Origin: an uncultured Bacteroidota bacterium
GTDB lineage: Bacteria > Bacteroidota > Bacteroidia > Flavobacteriales > Flavobacteriaceae
Assembly: GCA_903837025.1 (NCBI GenBank)
Contig: CAILTC010000009.1
Location: forward strand, 1-12,089
Direction of reading: 5' to 3'
Length of the DNA: 12,089 bases
The notes beneath the pieces are model-generated. The model saw only the letters and a list, made by a program, of their open reading frames with translations, had not been told where the DNA came from and searched no databases. The translations under genes and the position numbers were made by a program. Below are positions 621 through 11,619 of this stretch, one piece after another. The stretch's first letter is position 1, and each line of letters begins with the position of its first letter.

Positions 621-2024
621 TTAATTATTCTTGCTAAGGATTAAATGAATATCATCCCAAATTAACTTTGAAGCTTCAGTAGGCTTTTTCCCAACAATTG
701 TTTGAAACCATTGTTGCCCTTCTTCAACACTAGAAACTCCTCCATCGATGATCGTTTTTATTGTCGCTGTCAGATTGTTTTTATCTAAAGACCACAATGC
801 AGCATTTTTAGATGGCATGGAACGAAAATGAATGTATTTATAATTTTGACCTATATCTCTTATTCCTTTTTTTAGTTGGGGTTGCTCATAATCAAAAAAC
901 AAACACGATTTATTGTGCGCTACAAAATCAAACACCATCGAAGAAGCGATATTAGCAACAAACTCGGTATGTTCGCACACATTGGCTTGCATAATAAAAT
1001 CTTCTTTGGTTGGCATAATCTCATTCCAATTCGTACCAATTGGTCTCCAAATAGGATTTACAACTGCAATTATAGCCGCATATTTTTCAAGAATTTCGTT
1101 GTATCTATCGGTAAAATCAACGGGGCATTTTCGATACAATACACCTAAATTATACCCTTGATTATTCAATTCTATTACTGATTTTGCCAGATCCTCGACA
1201 TAATACTGATCTAATGGAGAGGTTACAATATCGTCTCCAGAATAACAGATATAGCGCTTTTGTGTATCTAAATTATTTTCTTCAAAAAAAGCTGTTCTAC
1301 TTTTTAAAATACTTTTATCAAAATGACTTTCAAACTGGGGTGTTCCCGTTACAAACGCATTTTCTGGTTTAACATAAGGACAATATAGAAGCAACTCCCT
1401 TTTCATGTGGTCACTCCATACAAAATAATAATCGGTTTCGACAAGGGTGGTTGCTTTAGGTAAATTATCCCAGGAGAAAATAAAAGTAGCGGTTGGAATA
1501 CCTAGATCTTGTGCTGCCAAAAGTGGCGCAATAGCTTGTGAAGGTCTTTGATTGGTACAAAAAATAAAATCGGGTTGATGTGCTTTTAATTGTGCTTTGC
1601 AATACTCATATTTAGAATTCTTCCTTTCGAGTTTTTTTATCTGATTTCTAACGAATAATAATCCTTTTTCATTAGAACCGAAAAACACCAATAAATCTAC
1701 GAAAATACTTTTGAAAGCATTATTGAAACCCTTATAGGAATGCGGAAAATTATACGTATTATAAACCGTTTCCTTAAACTTTTTATCAAAAATATTGAGT
1801 TCAATTCTTTTTCTAGCCCTTGTAAATACCGAAGTTAATTTATGAAGTTTGTGATTTTCTATTTTAACTTCCTCAAAATTCAATTCTTCTTTTAAGGAAA
1901 AAACGGTGTTATTCCAATATACAATTTCATACCCTTTTTGTTCTCCTATTTCCTTAAACTGGGTAAATGCAAAATTGCGTAAACCTACTCCGTCAGGCAA
2001 AAAAATAAAAACTTTTTTCTTCAT
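621..2024 (-). CDS. GT-B-like glycosyl/polyol-phosphate transferase, candidate nonulosonic acid transferase
   Basis: This 467-residue protein has no signal peptide or clear membrane helix and is probably cytoplasmic or peripherally bound. It begins with a Rossmann-like strand (KKKVFIFLPDG). Mid-protein it has DFIFCTNQRP (152-161), an SWDN motif (184-187) and VTGTPQFESH (225-234). Towards the C-terminus ASSMVFDFVAHNK (360-372) followed by CLFFDYE resembles the acceptor/donor-loop region of TagF-like and surface-polysaccharide GT-B proteins. The SWDN and TGxPxF pattern recalls surface carbohydrate biosynthesis proteins of the GT-B superfamily. I cannot assign a donor sugar. It follows the NeuB-type synthase by 35 bases, with a small hairpin in the gap, so linkage to nonulosonic acid use is plausible but inferred. 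Start is the ATG at 2022-2024, directly before the predicted first beta strand. A GT-B-type transferase is likely; the exact function is unknown. Confidence 0.6.
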   Translation of the reverse strand: MKKKVFIFLPDGVGLRNFAFTQFKEIGEQKGYEIVYWNNTVFSLKEELNFEEVKIENHKLHKLTSVFTRARKRIELNIFDKKFKETVYNTYNFPHSYKGFNNAFKSIFVDLLVFFGSNEKGLLFVRNQIKKLERKNSKYEYCKAQLKAHQPDFIFCTNQRPSQAIAPLLAAQDLGIPTATFIFSWDNLPKATTLVETDYYFVWSDHMKRELLLYCPYVKPENAFVTGTPQFESHFDKSILKSRTAFFEENNLDTQKRYICYSGDDIVTSPLDQYYVEDLAKSVIELNNQGYNLGVLYRKCPVDFTDRYNEILEKYAAIIAVVNPIWRPIGTNWNEIMPTKEDFIMQANVCEHTEFVANIASSMVFDFVAHNKSCLFFDYEQPQLKKGIRDIGQNYKYIHFRSMPSKNAALWSLDKNNLTATIKTIIDGGVSSVEEGQQWFQTIVGKKPTEASKLIWDDIHLILSKNN

Positions 2025-2059: not shown

Positions 2060-2935
2060 TTATATCTTTTTATTCTTCAACTTATCTCTTTGAACTTGCT
2101 CAATAGGCAAAATATCAGTTATTTTATGCGTCAATGCACTATGAACTGCATTCAAATCACGTGTTAATTTGCGTAATCCCATAGGTTCTAGTGATGCAGC
2201 ATGATCCGTACCTTTCCAAGTTCTGTCTTTTGTATAATGTCTTTCAACAATATTTGCTCCTAGGGTATAAGCTGCAATATCTACCGCAATCCCCAAATGG
2301 TGTCCAGAAAAACCAATGTGTTTTACTTTATCACCATATTTCTGTTTTAATAAATTAATATCCAAAAGACAAACATCTTCAAAAGGAACTGGATAACCTG
2401 AGGTACAATTGTAAAGCACTAAATCTTTGTTACGTCCTTTTCCGATAAAATAATTCACCAAGGTTTCTGTTTCATTTTTGGTTGTCATTCCGGTCGAAAT
2501 ATGTATTTCACCCTTATAATTATCACACAACCAGCCCAGCATTTCATAATTATTATTGCATGCCGATGGGATTTTTATAAAGTCAGGATTCAATGACGAA
2601 ATCTCTTTGGCCGATGTCGTGTCCCAAACCGATGTAGCGTAGATAATACCCAATTCTTCGCAATATTTTTTCAATTCAGCATGTTGATCTACATCAAATT
2701 CTAAATATTCCCTGTGGGAACCATACGTGTCACCATAGGAGTTGACAGGATTAGGATGGGGTGTATTGTATTGTTCTTCTGTCAATAACTCTTTGTTATT
2801 TCTTTTTTGGAATTTAACGGCATCGACCTCACAAAAAATGGCGGCAATTTTTATTAATTCTTTGGCAATTTCCATATCTCCTTTGTGATTACAGCCAATT
2901 TCGGCAATAACAAAAGGTTTTTTATACTCGTTCAT
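2060..2935 (-). CDS. NeuB-family nonulosonic acid (possibly 9-phosphate) synthase lacking the SAF domain
   Basis: NeuB-family enzymes condense phosphoenolpyruvate with a hexose (or hexose 6-phosphate) to make a nine-carbon sugar acid in the cytoplasm. Family motifs run in order: AEIGCNHKGD (11-20), VKFQ (40-43), HREYLE (74-79), IKIPSA (120-125), STGM (147-150), CTSGYPVPFEDV (177-188), GFSGHHLGI (208-216) and ERHYTKDR (231-238). H212 and H233 match the two metal-binding histidines of meningococcal NeuB, with the same 21-residue spacing. At 291 residues the protein stops after the TIM barrel and lacks the roughly 60-residue antifreeze-like (SAF) domain of standard NeuB (about 340 residues). SGHHLG and IKIPSA differ from the usual SDHTLG and IKI(G/A)SG. 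It overlaps the end of the cytidylyltransferase gene by 14 bases, suggesting translational coupling. The family is firm. The product (KDN, Neu5Ac or a relative) is not proven. Confidence 0.88.
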   Translation of the reverse strand: MNEYKKPFVIAEIGCNHKGDMEIAKELIKIAAIFCEVDAVKFQKRNNKELLTEEQYNTPHPNPVNSYGDTYGSHREYLEFDVDQHAELKKYCEELGIIYATSVWDTTSAKEISSLNPDFIKIPSACNNNYEMLGWLCDNYKGEIHISTGMTTKNETETLVNYFIGKGRNKDLVLYNCTSGYPVPFEDVCLLDINLLKQKYGDKVKHIGFSGHHLGIAVDIAAYTLGANIVERHYTKDRTWKGTDHAASLEPMGLRKLTRDLNAVHSALTHKITDILPIEQVQRDKLKNKKI

Positions 2936-4088
2936 ATCTTTTATTGTACTTCATTATAACTTCACAAACTTCTCTAATTGCACCGTTTCCAGAATTGTTT
3001 TTCAAAACAATATCAGCATGGGCTTTTATAATATTCATAGCATTTGCTGGAGAAAAAGACCATCCACAACTGCAAATATTACTTAAATCATTAACATCGT
3101 CGCCTACATAAGCCACGAACTCAAAACTACTGTTTTTAATTTCAAGAAATTGTTTCAAAAAAGAATATTTATCTTTTACTCCTAAAAAAACATTTTCAAT
3201 CTTGAGTTTTTTCATTCGTTGTGCCACTACTTTAGAATTTTCAGAAGTCAAAACGACAACCTCAACATTATTTTCTCTCAAAATTTCTAAGCCCATTCCG
3301 TCGCGCATATCGAATTTTTTGGCCATTTCCCCATCTTCATTGTAATACACACTTCCATCGGTAAAAACACCATCAACATCTAAAACCAAATACTGAATTC
3401 TCTGGCTTACTTTCATCGTTTTTTGTCTTTCAATCAAAAGGTTTTCGATTATATTCCAATCCGATAGGCTATCAATTTCCATGAGGGTTTCTTCGGGCAT
3501 TTCGATTAATCCAATGCTACCGCTCACTCTGTTGTTTGATTGTAAAAATGCTTCTTTTGTGGTACAATATACAGCTCCGTTTTCGACTAACAAACCATCA
3601 AAATCTTGTCGTCTGGGTCTGTTGAAAACATCATAGTTGTGGGGCGTACCATCTGTATTCCAAGTAAAGCGATGCGTTTTGACCACACTTAAAGCCGAAT
3701 CAAAAGAGTCTTTTGTGATTTTTTCTAAACTAGCATTTATATTCGCTGCCAAGGTTAATGGCGAGGTAGCTTGAAGCAAGCACAAAATAGTATAATCCTG
3801 ATCGATTTTTTTAGAAAATTCAATCATCACACTTTCGGTCGATGCGGTATCATTTGCGTTTTCTTCCGCCCGAAGCAAAGCTTTCACTTTGGTTGTCCAA
3901 TGGTATTCTCGCTCTACATACTCTATAATTTCTGTATCATCCGTAAATACATAAACCAAATCTAAATCCGAAAAAATGGCTTCGGTCAGCACCCATGTAA
4001 ACAAAGGGCGACCTACCATCTTCTTTTTATTCTTTCCAAGAATTCCTTTAGACCCTTTACGAAGCGGAATAATAGCTGCTTTTTTCAT
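2922..4088 (-). CDS. CMP-nonulosonate cytidylyltransferase fused to KdsC-like HAD phosphatase
   Basis: This is a bifunctional 388-residue protein. Residues 1 to about 222 are a NeuA-type cytidylyltransferase, which activates a sialic-acid-like sugar with CTP: IIPLRKGSKG (6-15) for nucleotide binding, LLQATSPL (104-111), RPRRQDF (157-163), ENGAVY (169-174) and EIDSLSDW (204-211). Residues about 229-388 are a type C0 HAD phosphatase: LDVDG with nucleophile D237 and D239, LTSE (280-283), KDK (305-307) and GDDVND (329-334). A Met at 225 lies at the junction, as expected from fusion of two once-separate genes. Vertebrate CMP-sialate synthetase has a similar cytidylyltransferase plus HAD-like layout. 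Here the HAD catalytic aspartates are intact, so it should be an active phosphatase, removing a 9-phosphate before CMP activation (inference). I chose the ATG at 4086-4088; the frame extends to a TTG at 4113-4115, but the NeuA fold starts at the ATG. The 3' end overlaps the synthase gene by 14 bases. Confidence 0.87.
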   Translation of the reverse strand: MKKAAIIPLRKGSKGILGKNKKKMVGRPLFTWVLTEAIFSDLDLVYVFTDDTEIIEYVEREYHWTTKVKALLRAEENANDTASTESVMIEFSKKIDQDYTILCLLQATSPLTLAANINASLEKITKDSFDSALSVVKTHRFTWNTDGTPHNYDVFNRPRRQDFDGLLVENGAVYCTTKEAFLQSNNRVSGSIGLIEMPEETLMEIDSLSDWNIIENLLIERQKTMKVSQRIQYLVLDVDGVFTDGSVYYNEDGEMAKKFDMRDGMGLEILRENNVEVVVLTSENSKVVAQRMKKLKIENVFLGVKDKYSFLKQFLEIKNSSFEFVAYVGDDVNDLSNICSCGWSFSPANAMNIIKAHADIVLKNNSGNGAIREVCEVIMKYNKRYERV

Positions 4089-4112: not shown

Positions 4113-4120
4113 CAAAAATA
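4113..4120 (-). promoter_or_regulatory. Possible internal promoter -7 element (TATTTTTG)
   Basis: On the transcribed strand TATTTTTG matches the Bacteroidota -7 consensus TAnnTTTG exactly. It ends 24 bases before the ATG of the cytidylyltransferase gene, inside a 65-base gap, one of the longer ones in the window. No TTG/TTTG sits at the expected spacing of about 19-21 bases upstream; the nearest TTG is 29 bases away. It may give the nonulosonate module some independent transcription, or may be chance in AT-rich DNA. Confidence 0.25.
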
Positions 4121-4153: not shown

Positions 4154-5035
4154 TTAATATTTTATCCCTTTTAGCATCTTTATTTTTTGTAAAGTACTAT
4201 TCTGAACTGGTTTTCTAAATTTCAGCACATAAAACAACTCTTTACCAGCACTAAAAGTAGATTTCCAAAACAACACAAAATACTTCAAGTCATATAATGC
4301 ATATTTTTTAAAATTATGAAATAACAATTTTGCTATTTTCAGAATGGGATTTGGATAATACACTACATAAAAAAAAAGGCTATTTTTGAGTTGTTTTCCA
4401 AATCGAAAATAATTTCTACCCTGACCCAAACGTTTTATTTTATCTACTCGATGATTCACAATGATCGAATTATCATAGCCTATTTCATAACCTAAATCTA
4501 AAACTTCGATAGCTAAACAAGACTCTTCGCCATAAATATCTATCCATACTGGGAAGCCATTGGTCATGTCATAAATTTCTTTGCGTATCGCAAAACCACA
4601 TCCCACAAAATCATTTGTTTTGTATTTGGCAATGTCAGGCTCTGCCCTTTTTAAAGCCTCTTCATCCGATTCGAAAACGCCTCTAATTTCTTGAAAGGCT
4701 ATAATACCAATTCTTTCATTTTCTAAAAAAACGGATTGGGTTTTAGCAATAAAATTAGTGCTCAAAGGATGTGCATCATCGTCTAATCCTATAAAGATTT
4801 TACCTGATGCTTTTTGATACAACTTGTTCCTTGCTGGAGAAGCACTAATACTTATTAGCGAATTTTCCCATTGCACCCATGGGTATTTTATAAGCAAAGC
4901 TTCTGTTTTTTTGCAACCATCAATAAAAACCAGTACTTCATGAATAGACAAATCAAGCAAACTAAATAGTTTGTTTAAGGTAATTTCCAGTTCATCTGGT
5001 CTGTTTTTGGTTACGATGAGTATTGATATTTCCAT
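4154..5035 (-). CDS. GT2 family glycosyltransferase
   Basis: A 293-residue GT-A fold, family 2 glycosyltransferase, probably cytoplasmic and membrane-associated, adding one sugar to the lipid-linked glycan. The N-terminal strand MEISILIVTKNRPDEL is typical. The metal/nucleotide-sugar motif is GLDDDAHP (83-90, DDD at 85-87). GEESCLAIEVLDLGYEIG (169-186) carries the expected catalytic-base acids, and NHR (194-196) is the usual distal His. The C-terminal part (about 215-275) is rich in aromatic and basic residues and may contact the membrane. It is followed by a 65-base gap and then the nonulosonate genes, and begins 9 bases after the GT4 gene stop. Start is the ATG at 5033-5035. The donor sugar cannot be inferred. 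Confidence 0.87.
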   Translation of the reverse strand: MEISILIVTKNRPDELEITLNKLFSLLDLSIHEVLVFIDGCKKTEALLIKYPWVQWENSLISISASPARNKLYQKASGKIFIGLDDDAHPLSTNFIAKTQSVFLENERIGIIAFQEIRGVFESDEEALKRAEPDIAKYKTNDFVGCGFAIRKEIYDMTNGFPVWIDIYGEESCLAIEVLDLGYEIGYDNSIIVNHRVDKIKRLGQGRNYFRFGKQLKNSLFFYVVYYPNPILKIAKLLFHNFKKYALYDLKYFVLFWKSTFSAGKELFYVLKFRKPVQNSTLQKIKMLKGIKY

Positions 5036-5044
5036 TCTTGTAGC

Positions 5045-6190
5045 TTATGGCAAAATGTCTTTGTATAATTGCACAATTTCTTGTTTTAATCTTTTTCTAT
5101 TGTAGTTATCATTCACAAAATCAACATTGTATTTCTGGGCATTTTCCCTCAATTCAATATTTTCTAATGCTTTTTCAATCCAATTTGCAATTTCTTTACT
5201 ATCTAAAGGATTTTCAATTAAAAAACCATTCACTCCATGTGTTATAACTTCTCCTGATACTTTGCCTGGATTAGACTGTATCGGGAATGCCCCCATTCCC
5301 ATAGCTTCTAATAAAACATTGGGCATACCATCTGAAATACTGTTGGCAATATGAATCAAACTTTTCCCCATCAATTGCAACAAATCGGCATTAGAAATAA
5401 ACTGCCCTCTTATAAATATTTTCACTTTTAAAGATTCAAAAAAACGGGAATTTTCAACTCGTTCTTTTACTACAATATCAGTACTATAAATTATAATTTC
5501 TAGTTTTTGTACTAATTTTAAAGGCAATAATTCAATAGCTTCAATTATTTTTAAAGCTTTGCCCACTCCGTCTTCGTAACCTTTTATGATTAATACATTT
5601 CGCTCGTTAATCGCTTGAATATACTTTTCTTCAATTGCTAATCCTCCATTACCAATATACGCACCCAAAAAAGCATTCTTAAAACCCTTTTCTTTTACAA
5701 TTTCATAATCTCTTTTACAATCGGTAATTAAATAATCTACTCTTGACAAAAATTGTTTAAATTGTACTTCTTGAACCCCTAATTCTTTATAAAAATAAAT
5801 ATCACTCCCCCAAGAAGAATAAATAAATTTAATATTTGGATTCTGCACCATAACTTCCAAAATGGGAAAACCGGCTAATCGCATTTCAAAACAATGTACA
5901 CTATCAGGCTTAATTTCATTAATTAGTTTCTTAAAAACAGTAGCTGTTTTTCTTTCGTTGTAAAATTGAACCCCTTCATAAATTCGAGGCAATTTATTTT
6001 TAAGGAAATGTCTTAAAGGGAAATCATATCTTAATTTCCAACCTTTTATTTGATGTACCCAATCTATTCTTTCTACCTTGTTACCACCATCGGTAACATC
6101 AAACCAATATACATCATAGCCAGAATCTTTCAATTGGTTGACCCATTGAAAAAAATGATGATTCGGTATGGCTACCATAAGGATTTTCAT
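5045..6190 (-). CDS. GT4 family (GT-B fold) glycosyltransferase
   Basis: This 381-residue GT-B glycosyltransferase is of the GT4 type, a retaining enzyme using a nucleotide sugar in the cytoplasm. The N-terminal half starts with MKILMVAIPNHHFF and contains SSWGSD (125-130), common in this group. The C-terminal nucleotide-binding half has SDGMPNVLLEAMGMG (286-300). That is the E-x7-E signature with Asp (D287) at the first position and E295 at the second, a conservative substitution; ITHGVNGFLIENP follows. Its ATG directly abuts the stop of the upstream family 2 gene (TAAATG), so translation is probably coupled. Family assignment is strong; sugar and linkage are unknown. Confidence 0.9.
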   Translation of the reverse strand: MKILMVAIPNHHFFQWVNQLKDSGYDVYWFDVTDGGNKVERIDWVHQIKGWKLRYDFPLRHFLKNKLPRIYEGVQFYNERKTATVFKKLINEIKPDSVHCFEMRLAGFPILEVMVQNPNIKFIYSSWGSDIYFYKELGVQEVQFKQFLSRVDYLITDCKRDYEIVKEKGFKNAFLGAYIGNGGLAIEEKYIQAINERNVLIIKGYEDGVGKALKIIEAIELLPLKLVQKLEIIIYSTDIVVKERVENSRFFESLKVKIFIRGQFISNADLLQLMGKSLIHIANSISDGMPNVLLEAMGMGAFPIQSNPGKVSGEVITHGVNGFLIENPLDSKEIANWIEKALENIELRENAQKYNVDFVNDNYNRKRLKQEIVQLYKDILP

Positions 6191-7105
6191 TTATTTGAAA
6201 CTTTTATAAATGGAATATAAATATAATTTTGTCAACAAATACTTTTCTTTAGTAATTTTAAAAATAGAAACATATTGGATAAAAGCTTTTAAATAGCTCT
6301 TTTCTCTATTAAAACTTGTCATTAAATTACGGCTTTTATCCCAAATACTTTGAGCAATAATTTCTTTTTTGTGACTAAATGACTCATCCGAATATATATA
6401 TTTCAATATTTTTAAAAGCACCTGAATAAAAGAACTATTTCTACGCATATAGCCCGCTGAAACACCAATATTCATTCGATAAACTGCTGTAATATCATCT
6501 ATAAAATGGATCTTGCCTCCATCTTTGACAACCCATAAATAAGTTTGCCAATCACCAAAAGGAAAATGAACAAACCAAGAAGGGACATTCTCTATATTTT
6601 GAATGTTCTTAAATAATACGGTTACAGAATGAATAAAATTATTAAAAATCAAGTCATCAAAATCAGGATCTTTTTTTTCTAAATTATAAGTATTATCTAC
6701 AGTTTCTCCATCTATAAATAATTTTCTAACACCTGTATATACTATAGAATAGTCAGGGTTATTCTCTAAAAAATCAACTTGTTTTTGTAATTTACAATCA
6801 TCTATCCAGTAATCATCTCCGTCGCAAATAGCAATATATTTACCATCACATTCCTTGATGGTTCGCATATAATTAGCTATCAGACCTATATTTTTTTTTA
6901 AAGACGGCAATAGTTTTATTTTATCACCATACTCTACTGCATAACGTTCACAAATATTTCTAGTTTCATCTGTACTATAATCTTCCCCAATAACCAATTG
7001 ATATTTAAAATTGGTTTTCTGCATGAGAGCACCTTCAATTGTTTGAGTAATAAATTGCTCCTGATTGTAGGTTAATATGAAAATACTTACTGTAATGTCA
7101 TTCAT
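6191..7105 (-). CDS. GT2 family glycosyltransferase
   Basis: This 304-residue GT-A glycosyltransferase starts with TVSIFILTYNQEQFI (5-19), the usual first strand. The metal motif is CDGDDYW (94-100). VIGEDYSTDET (38-48) replaces the more common NDGSTDGT in the first half, as in the subgroup with FGDWQTYL (183-190) and a downstream YRM (209-211) near the acceptor site. The C-terminal 80 residues are basic and aromatic-rich. It sits between the acyltransferase gene (75-base gap upstream) and the GT4 gene (directly abutting downstream). Start is the ATG at 7103-7105. It is likely part of the glycan assembly series; specificity is unknown. Confidence 0.87.
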   Translation of the reverse strand: MNDITVSIFILTYNQEQFITQTIEGALMQKTNFKYQLVIGEDYSTDETRNICERYAVEYGDKIKLLPSLKKNIGLIANYMRTIKECDGKYIAICDGDDYWIDDCKLQKQVDFLENNPDYSIVYTGVRKLFIDGETVDNTYNLEKKDPDFDDLIFNNFIHSVTVLFKNIQNIENVPSWFVHFPFGDWQTYLWVVKDGGKIHFIDDITAVYRMNIGVSAGYMRRNSSFIQVLLKILKYIYSDESFSHKKEIIAQSIWDKSRNLMTSFNREKSYLKAFIQYVSIFKITKEKYLLTKLYLYSIYKSFK

Positions 7106-7180
7106 TATAAAAATTATATCTGTTGTTTCTTTGTTGCTTATTAATTAAAACATTTTATAAGTAACAATGAAAATGTCATA

Positions 7181-8218
7181 TCAACCGTTTTTAGCACTAA
7201 AAAAAACTTTATATTTCAATGCCTTCTTTTCTATCAAATGCCAAGACAAATAACCAAACCCTATCGAAAGGAATACTGAAGTAATAATCAAAGTATAGGT
7301 ATTCATCTTAAAAAAATAGACCAAAGTTTGCTGAATCGGGAAACTGTATATATAAATCCCATAAGACATATCACCAAATTTACCAAAAGTACTTAAAAAA
7401 GGCAAAGGCATAAATCCTATTAGCATAATTATAATAGGTAAAAAAACATGTTTAACAGAATCATAATAATTAAAATAAAGTGATACTACTAAAACCAAAA
7501 TTGCTATACCTAAAACCACACTCTTGTATTTCAATTTTTCAAACTCTATTGAAGACAGTAAACTACCGCCTATAAAAAAAGTACCTAAGTTGAGCAGATG
7601 CAAACCTTGTATTTCGAATAAAGTAGAGTTCGCAAGTCTGTTTAGATAAAAATTATAAAGGAAACAAAAAACTACAAAAGCAAAAGAAAGAAAAATGATA
7701 CCTATTTTTTTTTGTTTTCTAAAAAAGAAAAGCAATGATAATGCAACATACAAGCTAAACTCATAGCGAATAGTCCATAACGAACCATTTATGACATGAT
7801 ATGAATTCGTATCAAATATTCCTTTTATACTGGATTGAAAATGATACAAACTAAGATTATTAGGCACATAAGTATAGACTGCATTATTTTTAAAAAAAGG
7901 AATCTCACTTTTATATACGAAAGGTGCTAAAATAATGGAAACCAATAAAACGACAATTAAGGCTGGAAAAAGTCTTAAAAACCGTTTTTTAAAATAATCA
8001 AAAATGCTTTTGCTCCGGTGTAAACTTTGAAAAATAAAGTAACCACTAATAATAAAAAAACCACTTAATCCTATTTGGGCCAAAACGATTTGCCCATTTG
8101 TAATTTGATAAATCCATTGAGAACGCTCATTACTGCCCGATAATGGATAAGAATGCGATATAACGACTAAAAGAGCAAACAAAAACCTTAGAAAATCAAA
8201 ATTATTATTTTTATTCAT
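7181..8218 (-). CDS. Acyltransferase 3 family membrane protein (OafA-like)
   Basis: A 345-residue integral membrane protein of the acyltransferase-3 family, which transfers acyl groups (usually acetyl) to sugars in surface glycans. The N-terminus shows FDFLRFLFALLVVISHS, with R11 and H22 forming the family R-x10-H motif. GFFIISGYFIF and a basic loop FKKRFLRLFPAL follow. Many hydrophobic helices fill the rest, with WTIRYEFSLYVALSLLFF near the middle and SYGIYIYSFPIQQ near the end. Length fits a bare membrane domain with no fused SGNH domain, although a separate SGNH-like protein is encoded at the low-coordinate end. I chose the ATG at 8216-8218; the frame also opens at a TTG two codons earlier. 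The target sugar is unknown; O-acetylation of the locus glycan is the likely role. Confidence 0.9.
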   Translation of the reverse strand: MNKNNNFDFLRFLFALLVVISHSYPLSGSNERSQWIYQITNGQIVLAQIGLSGFFIISGYFIFQSLHRSKSIFDYFKKRFLRLFPALIVVLLVSIILAPFVYKSEIPFFKNNAVYTYVPNNLSLYHFQSSIKGIFDTNSYHVINGSLWTIRYEFSLYVALSLLFFFRKQKKIGIIFLSFAFVVFCFLYNFYLNRLANSTLFEIQGLHLLNLGTFFIGGSLLSSIEFEKLKYKSVVLGIAILVLVVSLYFNYYDSVKHVFLPIIIMLIGFMPLPFLSTFGKFGDMSYGIYIYSFPIQQTLVYFFKMNTYTLIITSVFLSIGFGYLSWHLIEKKALKYKVFFSAKNG

Positions 8219-8231
8219 TTTCAAAAGTTTA

Positions 8232-9011
8232 CTAAAATTTATTGGGTTTATCGAACATAAATTTGATTAGATAAAAAAATCTCAAAATAATATACCACAA
8301 ATCTACTATAGCCTTTTTAACCAAATGAAAAATACTTGCTAACAATCCTTTGACAGCGCTTTCTAAACTAATATCCTGATGCCACAATTGATAATTTCCG
8401 ATAACATCATTTTTAAATCTAAAAAACAATTGTTTAGGACTTCGCTTGATTTCGTAGCTAAATATAGATTCGACAAAATCGATATCATAACCTGCTTTCA
8501 ACACTCTTGCCGTCCATTCTTTGTCTTCAAAAGTAGCTACATCTTCTCTGAATTGATATTTTTCCCACACTATTTTATTAAAGGCTGAACCTGAAAAAAT
8601 CAACCCTGATTTATTAGGATCTATTGTTGCTGGAATTTTATTGATGTAGTTTTTATAATCATTAGAATTATGAAGACACCTCAATCCTGCTAAATTAGAA
8701 TTTTCATCAAACTTATTTTGAATTAACTTAAAAAAATCATGACTTACGGGATACGAATGGGCGCTAAAAATAACAACTATAGAATTTTTGGCTTCCTTTG
8801 CACACAAATTGGCACTACCACCAAAACTAAAATCTTTGATGGTTACAAAACGAGCTCCAAATTTTTCGGCAATTTCCTCGCTATTATCAATTGATAAATT
8901 ATCAATAACAATTATTTCATCAATGTCATCACAATATCTTTCCGTTAAGTTTTTCAACAAAAAAGAGAGTGCTTCTGCTTGATTTTTATTTCTAATAACA
9001 ACTGAAATCAT
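8232..9011 (-). CDS. GT2 family glycosyltransferase with SAH in place of DxD
   Basis: A 259-residue family 2 glycosyltransferase. The first strand is ISVVIRNKNQAEAL and the second motif IIVIDNLSIDNS (33-44). Where most relatives have DxD, this one has IFSAHSYP (81-88), with no Asp. The later ATFEDKEWTARVLKAGYDI (159-177) supplies the acidic base region, and the expected distal His is replaced around SYEIKR (185-190). Family 2 members with SAHxxP at this position exist, so it is probably a subfamily trait and not decay, but the metal dependence may differ. A hydrophobic C-terminal helix (about 228-255) suggests membrane contact. Start is the ATG at 9009-9011, five bases after the upstream stop. 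Specificity is unknown. Confidence 0.83.
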   Translation of the reverse strand: MISVVIRNKNQAEALSFLLKNLTERYCDDIDEIIVIDNLSIDNSEEIAEKFGARFVTIKDFSFGGSANLCAKEAKNSIVVIFSAHSYPVSHDFFKLIQNKFDENSNLAGLRCLHNSNDYKNYINKIPATIDPNKSGLIFSGSAFNKIVWEKYQFREDVATFEDKEWTARVLKAGYDIDFVESIFSYEIKRSPKQLFFRFKNDVIGNYQLWHQDISLESAVKGLLASIFHLVKKAIVDLWYIILRFFYLIKFMFDKPNKF

Positions 9012-9016
9012 GAAAT

Positions 9017-9868
9017 TTATTTTTTTTCCAATACCTTTTGTATAATTCGATAAGGCTTACAAATTGCCTTTGCAATTTTGTATTCTAGTGAATTTTTAAT
9101 TTTTTGTTCGCCCGTTCGATGCGTTTTTAGCCAGTAAAAAAGTACTGTCATACAATTATCGAAATCTTGAATATAAATTTCCTTGTGTTTTTTATAAATA
9201 TATTCCTTATTTAATTCCGCATGATTATTTAAAGTATCCACTAACATTGACTTTTTTGATTTTCTGTAATAAAATAGAAACTCCGGAACTATTTTATAAT
9301 GCCAAGCTTTCTTAGTTATTGCCAACCAAAATTCCCAATCTTCAAAACCCTTTTTCATACTTTCGTCATAGCCACCAACTTCTTCCCAACACTTTTTTCT
9401 ATATAAAGAAGTGGCAATTAATTGATTCACATAAAGCAAATCATGATTGGTAGTTCCATTTGGTTTCAATTCATAAATAATGTTTTTCAAATCTTTCTCG
9501 AAAAACTGACTATAGCAAGATACAATCGCTAATGAATTATCTTGCTGTAATTCCGGAACAAGTTGAATTAAATAATCTTTATCAATAGAGTCATCCGCAT
9601 CTAAGGGCAAAATATATTCTCCTTTACTAATTGCGATTCCTGCATTTCTCGCACTTGATAACCCTCCGTTTTCTTTATATAAATAGCTAAATCGATTGTC
9701 TTTTTTACACCATTGTTGGGCGACACTTTCTGTATTATCAGGACTTCCATCATTAACAATGATACATTCCCAATCCGAATATGTTTGATCTAAAACAGAT
9801 TGTAAAGAATCATTCAAAAAATGAGCTTGTTTGTAACACGGAACAATTATAGAAACGAGTGTATTCAT
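9017..9868 (-). CDS. GT2 family glycosyltransferase
   Basis: A textbook family 2 GT-A enzyme of 283 residues. VSIIVPCYKQAHFL (5-18) starts the fold. VNDGSPDNT (38-46), ENGGLSSARNAGI (66-78) and LDADD (89-93) form the nucleotide-sugar and metal site. GFEDWEFWL (174-182) carries the probable catalytic base, and YYRKSKKSM follows. The last 40 residues are basic, possibly for membrane association. The ATG (9866-9868) is separated by a single base from the upstream stop, so the two family 2 genes are probably translationally coupled. It probably adds one residue to the glycan; donor and acceptor cannot be read from sequence. Confidence 0.9.
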   Translation of the reverse strand: MNTLVSIIVPCYKQAHFLNDSLQSVLDQTYSDWECIIVNDGSPDNTESVAQQWCKKDNRFSYLYKENGGLSSARNAGIAISKGEYILPLDADDSIDKDYLIQLVPELQQDNSLAIVSCYSQFFEKDLKNIIYELKPNGTTNHDLLYVNQLIATSLYRKKCWEEVGGYDESMKKGFEDWEFWLAITKKAWHYKIVPEFLFYYRKSKKSMLVDTLNNHAELNKEYIYKKHKEIYIQDFDNCMTVLFYWLKTHRTGEQKIKNSLEYKIAKAICKPYRIIQKVLEKK

Positions 9869-9869
9869 T

Positions 9870-10652
9870 TTAAAATTTATTTAAAAACCCTAATTTTACT
9901 AATACTTTAATAATCCTAGACTTTCTAAAATTAGCAACAATATCTTTATAAATAATAACATCGCCAATATCTTGCAAATAAACAGGATATTCTTCTTGAA
10001 GTACTTGTTGTTTTTCGTTCTCTTTAAGAACTCTATTAGATGGATTAGAACTCATCCCACCAATATAAAAAGTAGACAATGTAGCATTTATTTTTTTATA
10101 GCTTAAATTATACCTGCAAATACTGTCTATAAAAAACTTCCAATCGGATAGTATCTTAAAATCTTCTTTGTAAAAATTTGTTTTTCCAAAAGTACTTTTA
10201 GCAATAAAAGTGGCTGGATGTGGTAAAGTATCTTCTACAAAATAGGAAAAGGACAATACCTCAGGGTATTCTTTAATAAAGATTTTATGTTCTTCAACCA
10301 CTTGCAAATTAAAATAAATAATATCCCTATCCTTTATTTCTTGCTGATTTTGTGCTAATACTTTATTATTATAAAAGTGATCACCGCTGTTCAAAAAAAG
10401 TAAATATTCCCCCGATGCTTTTGCAATTCCTTTATTCATGGCGTGATAAACCCCCGTATCAGGTTCACTTATCCAATACTCAAATAATTGCGTTTTACTT
10501 TCAATATAAGCCGCACTGCCATCAGTAGAACCACCATCAATGATGATATGCTCAAACTCTTGCCATGTTTGATTAGAAACGCTCTCAATAGTTTTTTTTA
10601 ATCCTTCAAGATTGTTATAATTAACCGTGATTATGGAAATTTTAGGTTTCAA
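9870..10652 (-). CDS. GT2 family glycosyltransferase, WcaE-like, TTG start
   Basis: A 260-residue family 2 glycosyltransferase of the type seen in colanic-acid and Bacteroidota clusters. The fold starts KISIITVNYNN (4-14), then IDGGSTDGS (38-46) and SEPDTGVYHAMNKGI (62-76). The metal motif position reads LNSGD (87-91), with Asn at the first Asp position, as in WcaE-like proteins. HPATFI (145-150) and LSDW (168-171) are typical of the group. The start must be the TTG at 10650-10652: the conserved N-terminal strand begins three residues later, no in-frame ATG precedes it after the upstream stop, and the next Met is residue 72. It lies 19 bases after the upstream gene stop and one base before the downstream ATG. 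Confidence 0.87.
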   Translation of the reverse strand: MKPKISIITVNYNNLEGLKKTIESVSNQTWQEFEHIIIDGGSTDGSAAYIESKTQLFEYWISEPDTGVYHAMNKGIAKASGEYLLFLNSGDHFYNNKVLAQNQQEIKDRDIIYFNLQVVEEHKIFIKEYPEVLSFSYFVEDTLPHPATFIAKSTFGKTNFYKEDFKILSDWKFFIDSICRYNLSYKKINATLSTFYIGGMSSNPSNRVLKENEKQQVLQEEYPVYLQDIGDVIIYKDIVANFRKSRIIKVLVKLGFLNKF

Positions 10653-10671
10653 ATTTCTATTTATTTTAATT

Positions 10672-11619
10672 CTATCGATACAAAAATGTAAAAAGTTCTT
10701 TTCTAAGCCTTATAATTGGAAAATATTTGACACTTAAATATGTAAACAAAAGTTTAGGATTACTAAAAAATATTGAAGCCCAATATAAGCTATCATTTAG
10801 CAAGCTGTTTTTTTGTTTGAATTTTAAAAGCCAAATCCATTTCAATAAAGTATCAATTTTAGTTAATGGAATTCCTTTTTTACTACTCCAAAAAATAAGC
10901 GATTCATACATTTTTATCACATAAATTCTATACAAATCTTCTCTATCAAAAACATTAGCGTCATGAACACCTCTTTTAGCTACTGGTTTTTCTAATATCC
11001 CTCCAACTAATTTGGTTTTCAATGCCATTTTCCAAAATAAATCAGAATCTTCCGAAACCATCAAATCCTCATTAAATAAGCCCGATACATCAAAAACTGT
11101 TTTTTTAACCGTTAAGCCGTCTATCTGAAAAAAACCATATTTACCTGAAATTAAGGCATCAAAAAGAAAATCGGATTCGATTCCTTTTGTCATTGTATTC
11201 AACTTAAACTGGCTTTGCTCGACTACAGTAATTGGTCTATAAAAATCAAATCCTACTGCATTATATATTCCATCACAATCCTTATTTTCTTGAAATACTT
11301 TGATATCATTTACAAATCTATTTTCCAAATAGTAATCATCAGCATCTAGAAAAGCAATATAATTCCCAGTAGCTTTTTGTATTCCAAGATTTCTACTGGC
11401 CGAACGCCCTTTATTCAATTTGTCTTTATGATGATAAACTTTAATCTTTGAGTTTTGTAATTGCAGTTCATCAAGAATCACTTGAGTTCCGTCAATACTT
11501 CCATCATTTACAACAATAATTTCAGTAACTTGTGGTTGCTGCAAGACCGAAAAAATTGCTTTTTTTATAAAGCGTTGACCGTTATATACTGGAATTATGA
11601 CGGATATTGAAAATTGCAT
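10672..11619 (-). CDS. GT2 family glycosyltransferase
   Basis: A 315-residue family 2 GT-A glycosyltransferase. SISVIIPVYNGQRFI (4-18), VNDGSIDGT (37-45), KGRSASRNLGI (70-80) and LDADDYYLENR (91-101) are all present, so the donor site looks intact. SEDSDLFWKMAL (189-200) matches the acidic catalytic segment. The C-terminal region (about 245-315) is rich in aromatic and basic residues and may associate with the membrane. Start is the ATG at 11617-11619, with no in-frame alternative nearby. A 75-base gap separates it from the FkbM-type gene upstream; I see no convincing promoter there. Specificity is unknown. Confidence 0.9.
   Translation of the reverse strand: MQFSISVIIPVYNGQRFIKKAIFSVLQQPQVTEIIVVNDGSIDGTQVILDELQLQNSKIKVYHHKDKLNKGRSASRNLGIQKATGNYIAFLDADDYYLENRFVNDIKVFQENKDCDGIYNAVGFDFYRPITVVEQSQFKLNTMTKGIESDFLFDALISGKYGFFQIDGLTVKKTVFDVSGLFNEDLMVSEDSDLFWKMALKTKLVGGILEKPVAKRGVHDANVFDREDLYRIYVIKMYESLIFWSSKKGIPLTKIDTLLKWIWLLKFKQKNSLLNDSLYWASIFFSNPKLLFTYLSVKYFPIIRLRKELFTFLYR

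Follow-up and report, generated by a model that had tools for sequence, protein, structure and literature searches.

The 12,089-nucleotide stretch of flavobacterial DNA described here, referred to as the window, carries two overlapping genes whose products probably suffice to make, by way of a 9-phosphate, a deaminated nonulosonate activated with cytidine monophosphate (CMP), most likely CMP-KDN (KDN, 2-keto-3-deoxynononic acid). One gene encodes a synthase of the NeuB family that lacks the SAF domain, and the other a CMP-nonulosonate synthetase fused to a phosphatase of the haloacid dehalogenase (HAD) type. Passage through a 9-phosphate is highly probable. KDN, which we infer together with the substrate, the acceptor and the transfer step, is the likely product. 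The phosphate route is of the animal type, and the usual bacterial nonulosonate route differs from it.

In the proposed pathway, the synthase would condense mannose 6-phosphate (Man-6-P) with phosphoenolpyruvate (PEP) to give KDN-9-phosphate (KDN-9-P); the HAD part of the fusion would dephosphorylate this to KDN. Within that fusion, the cytidylyltransferase would then convert KDN to CMP-KDN, and a neighbouring transferase, for which the best guess is a 467-residue protein with a GT-B fold, would place KDN on a surface glycan.

The gene pair and its conservation

The window corresponds to contig C9:1-12089, apparently the entire contig, of a fragmentary genome (665 contigs, 3.14 Mb, 89% complete). 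A preliminary description had recognized in it a NeuB-type synthase overlapping by 14 bases a gene for a cytidylyltransferase fused to a HAD phosphatase. The open reading frames (ORFs) lie as described, and Pfam confirms both proteins:

2060..2935, minus strand: SAF-less NeuB-family synthase, 291 residues, proposed nonulosonate-9-phosphate (KDN-9-P) synthase (PF03102, motifs and conservation)
2714..2734, minus strand: synthase motif GDTYGSH, residues 68-74 (position counted by hand), of the form G.[TS]YG.H (alignment)
2922..4088, minus strand: fused CMP-nonulosonate synthetase and HAD phosphatase, 388 residues (Pfam, NCBIfam and PDB matches to both domains)
2922..2935, minus strand: 14-nt overlap of the synthase and fused-protein frames (ORF coordinates)
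3438..4085, minus strand: cytidylyltransferase domain, about residues 2-217 of the fused protein (profile search against the PDB)
2925..3404, minus strand: HAD phosphatase domain of type C0, roughly residues 229-388 of the fused protein (conserved residues)

The fused ORF has its stop side at 2922 and an ATG at 4088; an in-frame TTG at 4115 is a possible alternative start.

In named genomes, a scan turned up 276 synthase relatives; all counts of 80 relatives refer to the best 80 of these 276, whose record titles name Flavobacterium or other flavobacteria. Synthase and fused protein are both present in the fetched stretch at all 80 related loci, so their pairing is not due to chance. The two genes share a strand in 78 of the 80 and lie at most 60 nt apart or overlap in 53; their frames overlap in 24 relatives, by exactly 14 nt in 12. 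Identity to the window proteins is 79-91% for the synthase, 59-83% for the fused protein and 49-90% for the 467-residue protein. Among 100 Flavobacteriaceae genomes (one per genus, that of the window included), 12 have a synthase at 67% identity or more, and the next matches reach at most 39%.

The fused protein

Residues D237, D239, T281, K307 and D330 of the window HAD correspond to the catalytic D10, D12, T54, K80 and D103 of BT1713, the KDN-9-P phosphatase of Bacteroides thetaiotaomicron, and E283, R291 and K294 correspond to its E56, R64 and K67. All of these residues are present in the window and in the fused proteins of 80 of 80 relatives, a count that leaves out the window's own copies L001 and L103 as well as L104. 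Judged by its residues, the fused phosphatase is apparently active. E56 and K67 presumably set the specificity for KDN-9-P, a point on which a literature search turned up no paper; the PDB chain 4hgq differs at position 56 (Glu to Ala).

Pfam recognizes CTP_transf_3 (56.7 bits) and HAD models in the fused protein, in which an N-terminal synthetase is joined to a C-terminal HAD-fold domain, the two-domain architecture of CMAS. In a profile search, the best PDB match of the CMP domain is 9t4z, named PpNeuA (230.7 bits), with 155.8 bits for the mouse CMP-N-acetylneuraminic acid (CMP-Neu5Ac) synthetase 1qwj, 99.0 for 6ifd, 93.2 for NmNeuA (1eyr) and at most 38.2 for a KdsB chain. We suspect that 9t4z is the CMP-Kdn enzyme of the alga Prymnesium parvum; this could not be confirmed, and a literature search returned no PpNeuA paper.

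The synthase

The synthase is a member of the NeuB/sialic acid synthase superfamily, with 227 bits against PF03102 (cut-off 22.1). This is its sole Pfam match, and at 291 residues it has no SAF domain. It falls below the cut-offs of the canonical NeuB and PseI equivalogs, TIGR03569 (203 of 400 bits) and TIGR03586 (137 of 340 bits), and the matches end at model positions 274 of 329 and 272 of 327, respectively. All 80 relatives retain two motifs, G.[TS]YG.H and WKGTDH; the first was originally written G.TYG.H, which 78 of the 80 contain, and was relaxed afterwards. By alignment, G.[TS]YG.H also occurs in human NANS and in the synthases of loci L002-L004, which adjoin HADs that pass the KDN-9-P phosphatase cut-off. 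The human NANS sequence in all comparisons is a provisional one of 359 residues with a SAF part. The motif is absent from the free-sugar synthases compared, namely NmNeuB, SpsE, 6ncs, the PseI of L108 and the second NeuB of L111.

Identity to the window synthase is 39% for the provisional human NANS sequence, 33-38% for L002-L004, 35-36% for L011, L015 and L016, and 29% for L111 and PseI. In a tree of 21 rows, including 6 of the 80 close relatives, for which the program warned of long branches, PseI, L111 and NmNeuB split from all others (94/90) and human NANS is placed next to the clade of the flavobacteria (90/86, unstarred). The chain 6ncs, which bears the name of a sialic acid synthetase, groups with the remaining rows and not with PseI, L111 and NmNeuB. 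From these signs, it is proposed that the window synthase forms KDN-9-P from Man-6-P and PEP.

The loss of SAF was considered as proof of KDN and rejected. R314 of NmNeuB presumably contacts the N-acetyl group; at this position, found by counting, L002-L004 have Ser, and the PseI of L108 and the NeuB of L111 have Arg. By eye, human NANS, a user of N-acetylmannosamine 6-phosphate (ManNAc-6-P), is also without that Arg, and a missing SAF is for this reason not diagnostic.

Another type of SAF-less synthase, 290-293 residues long, stands beside a standalone E56/K67 HAD at L011, L015 and L016. This type may represent a third variety of 9-phosphate synthase.

Possible sources of the sugar

We infer Man-6-P to be the most economical hexose 6-phosphate substrate. 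Among 32 genomes examined, the window's own and 31 from the genomes of the 80 relatives, all carrying the pair, ManA is over its cut-off in 31. By hand count, 13 of these 31 genomes, 12 being Flavobacterium, have ManA and the synthase on one contig with no more than about 72 kb between them, a linkage that carries little weight because shared ancestry can explain it. Seven genomes (G201, G202, G203, G209, G215, G220 and G223) have no match to the NeuC model TIGR03568, and in none of them does NanE, AGE or PseB pass its cut-off, yet all seven contain the pair and ManA.

The preliminary description had seen no gene of NeuC, PseB or LegB type in the window, and none is found among the 13 window proteins scanned with Pfam. 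It had also held that a full legionaminic (Leg) or pseudaminic (Pse) acid pathway close by would speak against a 9-phosphate route. No such pathway appears near the pair: the window's genome, at 89% completeness, has a single NeuB and no NeuC/LegG, PseB or NanE over cut-off, LegB not having been searched with a model of its own, and its single Epimerase_2 protein is WecB (242 against a cut-off of 210).

On contig C257 (L105), WecB adjoins a reductase resembling WbcJ (247 of 500) and a protein resembling PseB (322 of 408), both below cut-off. These neighbours suggest another amino-sugar pathway, probably one for a deoxy-amino sugar such as N-acetyl-L-fucosamine (L-FucNAc).

NeuB matches number one in 27 of the 32 genomes, and five have a second match. 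PseB is over cut-off in 4 of 32; all four belong to the five genomes with two NeuB matches, and in them the second NeuB and PseB are 4-7 kb apart. At L108, in the genome (G227, Nonlabens xiamenensis) that also holds L094, an apparently complete pseudaminic-acid cluster coexists with the KDN-type pair, which suggests that a single organism may operate two nonulosonate routes in parallel.

Alternative explanations

A number of observations weigh against a pair dedicated to KDN. The window HAD scores 136 bits against NF058599, the KDN-9-P phosphatase model, below its cut-off of 180; in favour of KDN, however, L005 (190) and L007 (181) among kin of the fused protein pass, with L008 (174) below. 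With the window sequence alone, several KdsC/YrbI chains (102-104 bits) score above BT1713 (89.9). Only a profile of 21 fused proteins puts BT1713 on top, with 151.5 bits for 3e81 (BT1713), 144.8 for 3mn1 and 141.6 for the KdsC chain 4um5, and 3 of its 21 members are of the L005, L007 and L008 kind, possibly pulling it toward BT1713. HADs with E56/K67 occur with no synthase found in the 3.4 kb examined at L006, L012, L014, L017 and L019, and at L011, L015 and L016 they adjoin synthases without G.[TS]YG.H. At 19 alignable loci of the 20 in L002-L021 (L021 was unmatched), positions 56/67 are E/K in 14 and D/R in 5. The signature may thus extend beyond KDN, and the loci without a synthase suggest that it may characterise a broader set of nonulosonate phosphatases. 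As for the sugar, some match to TIGR03568 is seen in 14 of the 32 genomes, nine have an AGE that passes its cut-off, and the window's own fragmentary genome is the single one of the 32 in which ManA was not found. The lists of similar folds for the modelled 467-residue protein put the NeuC and MnaA 2-epimerases first. Likeness to human NANS does not choose KDN either, because that enzyme accepts both ManNAc-6-P and Man-6-P, according to Table 2 of PMC6200933.

One alternative is the same 9-phosphate chemistry starting from ManNAc-6-P and leading to CMP-Neu5Ac, or to Neu5Ac and KDN together, as with the animal enzymes. Human NANS is the nearest characterised relative compared, and AGE is a possible source of ManNAc. 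However, NanE is over cut-off in none of the 32 genomes, with weak matches in 15, and NeuC in none; because the TIGR03568 cut-off is strict (passed in 2 of 14 control genomes), weight is put on the 18 of 32 genomes without any match to it. Seven of the 32 lack all the ManNAc families searched, and the CMP domain is nearer to 9t4z than to mouse CMAS, a comparison in which the standing of 9t4z as the algal CMP-Kdn enzyme could not be confirmed. A start from ManNAc-6-P is on the whole rather unlikely. A free-sugar route of the Neu5Ac, Leg or Pse type is quite improbable. The HAD would then be structural only, as in vertebrate CMAS, and the sugar might come from the 467-residue protein acting as a divergent epimerase of the NeuC kind, as its fold lists would allow. 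But the catalytic residues of the HAD are intact in 80 of 80, the synthase motifs are absent from the free-sugar enzymes compared, and the Pse clusters of four genomes have a second NeuB of their own. Five Epimerase_2 sequence motifs are found in 0 of 32 of the 467-residue proteins, though of two control epimerases, with 5/5 and 2/5, one matched only partly; Pfam Epimerase_2 matches 1 of the 32, at E 0.0013. With the motifs against it and the fold list for it, the epimerase reading of this protein stays a rival.

It is very improbable that the fused protein serves 3-deoxy-D-manno-octulosonic acid (Kdo), as a CMP-Kdo synthetase and Kdo-8-phosphate phosphatase. Its HAD does pass TIGR01670 (KdsC type; 139 bits, cut-off 107), and KdsC chains come above BT1713 in the single-sequence search. 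However, each of the 32 genomes has exactly two HADs over TIGR01670, one standalone (176-220 residues) and one fused (384-406 residues), and with a separate KdsC in 32 of 32, the fused HAD is not needed for Kdo. The residues at positions 56 and 67 also differ: the standalone KdsC of the window's genome has Gly and Asn, and among standalone KdsC proteins from pair-carrying genomes (20 fetched of 32 available), Gly56 is found in 20 of 20 and Lys67 in 0 of 20. The window HAD misses the KdsC equivalog NF007019 (136 of 208 bits), a strict cut-off, as the genome's own KdsC also misses it (153.9 bits), and the CMP domain scores far higher with PpNeuA than with any KdsB chain. The 9-phosphate route put forward in the preliminary description is supported by an intact HAD with E56/K67, the separate KdsC, the motifs that the synthase has in common with phosphate-route enzymes and the absence, among the families searched, of free-sugar pathway genes linked to the pair.

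The 467-residue protein and the surrounding cluster

Two further features of the window are:

621..2024, minus strand: conserved 467-residue partner with a GT-B fold, downstream of the synthase (homologues, AlphaFold2, fold lists, motifs)
4154..11619, minus strand: surface-glycan cluster (context) with one GT4, six GT2 and one acyltransferase (Pfam)

The 467-residue protein has no Pfam match at E 0.001. AlphaFold2 predicts a GT-B fold (pLDDT 89), and the family has an invariant SS..FD motif. This uncharacterised family accompanies the nonulosonate pair; the best guess is a glycosyltransferase, possibly for the nonulosonate. A homologue is present in 76 of the 80 relatives; of the four loci without one, L045 and L086 are near a contig end, whereas at L070 and L077 it was simply not seen.

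The representatives of 12 clusters of neighbouring proteins, scanned with Pfam and/or NCBIfam, include glycosyltransferases, an MBOAT acyltransferase, a pyruvyl-transferase-like protein and a weak DUF1574-like protein; no nonulosonate precursor enzyme is among these representatives, beyond which the scan covered only the window's own members. The pyruvyl-transferase-like protein (L042:10881-11699 and its cluster) lies between the synthase and the 467-residue gene in 33 loci and has no counterpart in the window; it might modify the glycan that carries the nonulosonate.

Significance

The gene pair occurs in many flavobacteria, where it probably serves to convert Man-6-P, an ordinary cell sugar, to activated KDN for the surface. 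Judged by titles and abstract openings, none of the papers listed that link KDN or nonulosonic acids to Flavobacterium or Bacteroidetes deals with the module. It is not claimed to be unpublished, because the 2009 phylogenomic survey of nonulosonic acids by Lewis et al. may have touched these genes. What is added here, read from sequence, is a compact variant: its synthase lacks SAF, its phosphatase is fused, apparently active and equipped with KDN-type residues, a third gene is conserved alongside, and the set is spread among flavobacteria.

If the proposal is true, flavobacteria would make KDN without a dedicated amino-sugar branch, two genes linking central metabolism to a CMP-activated nonulosonate, and KDN would be predicted on many freshwater and marine flavobacteria. 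The pair would be a compact set of enzymes for making CMP-KDN. The names N-acetylneuraminate synthase, N-acylneuraminate cytidylyltransferase and YrbI family Kdo-8-P phosphatase would mislead.

Comparison with known systems

KDN synthesis in B. thetaiotaomicron is already known (PMC12413058, PMC7845648), with the route given in PMC6200933, where the BT1714 synthase and the KDN-9-P phosphatase are named. The flavobacterial pair shares with that pathway the 9-phosphate logic, a HAD with E56/R64/K67 and a CMP synthetase in the set, but in B. thetaiotaomicron the phosphatase stands alone, unfused. The B. thetaiotaomicron-like synthases L002-L004 have the G.[TS]YG.H of the window synthase, whereas L002 and L003 are 344-345 residues long with a C-terminal SAF-like part and only 33-35% identical to it. 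The type found at L011, L015 and L016 in other Bacteroidota is also a SAF-less synthase adjoining a KDN-type HAD, but its HAD is unfused and its synthase, lacking G.[TS]YG.H, differs in sequence.

The Prymnesium parvum system leads, as proposed for the window pair, from Man-6-P to CMP-Kdn, and the best PDB match of the window CMP domain is named PpNeuA, though its source organism could not be confirmed. According to PMC6200933, the algal synthetase used Man-6-P alone of seven sugars tested, and the CMP-Kdn synthetase made no CMP-Neu5Ac. Unlike the flavobacterial pair, this is a eukaryotic system of separate proteins, for which no clear phosphatase homologue was found.

Vertebrate CMAS has the N-terminal synthetase and C-terminal HAD-fold domain in the same order as the fused protein. 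The provisional human NANS sequence, 39% identical to the window synthase, carries GKTYGEH and WKGSDH but has a SAF part, which the window synthase lacks. Phosphatase activity was not seen with the mouse CMAS C-domain according to PMC8636478, whereas the window HAD keeps all catalytic residues. A bolder and doubtful proposal is that NANS and CMAS have their bacterial equivalent in the flavobacterial pair, that the inactive C-domain of vertebrate CMAS descended from such a working phosphatase and that many flavobacteria display KDN made from Man-6-P by a three-step, two-protein route. If the proposed KDN route is true, the fused protein would be a living candidate for an active form of the CMAS C-domain, whose vertebrate role is described as still unclear in PMC8636478.
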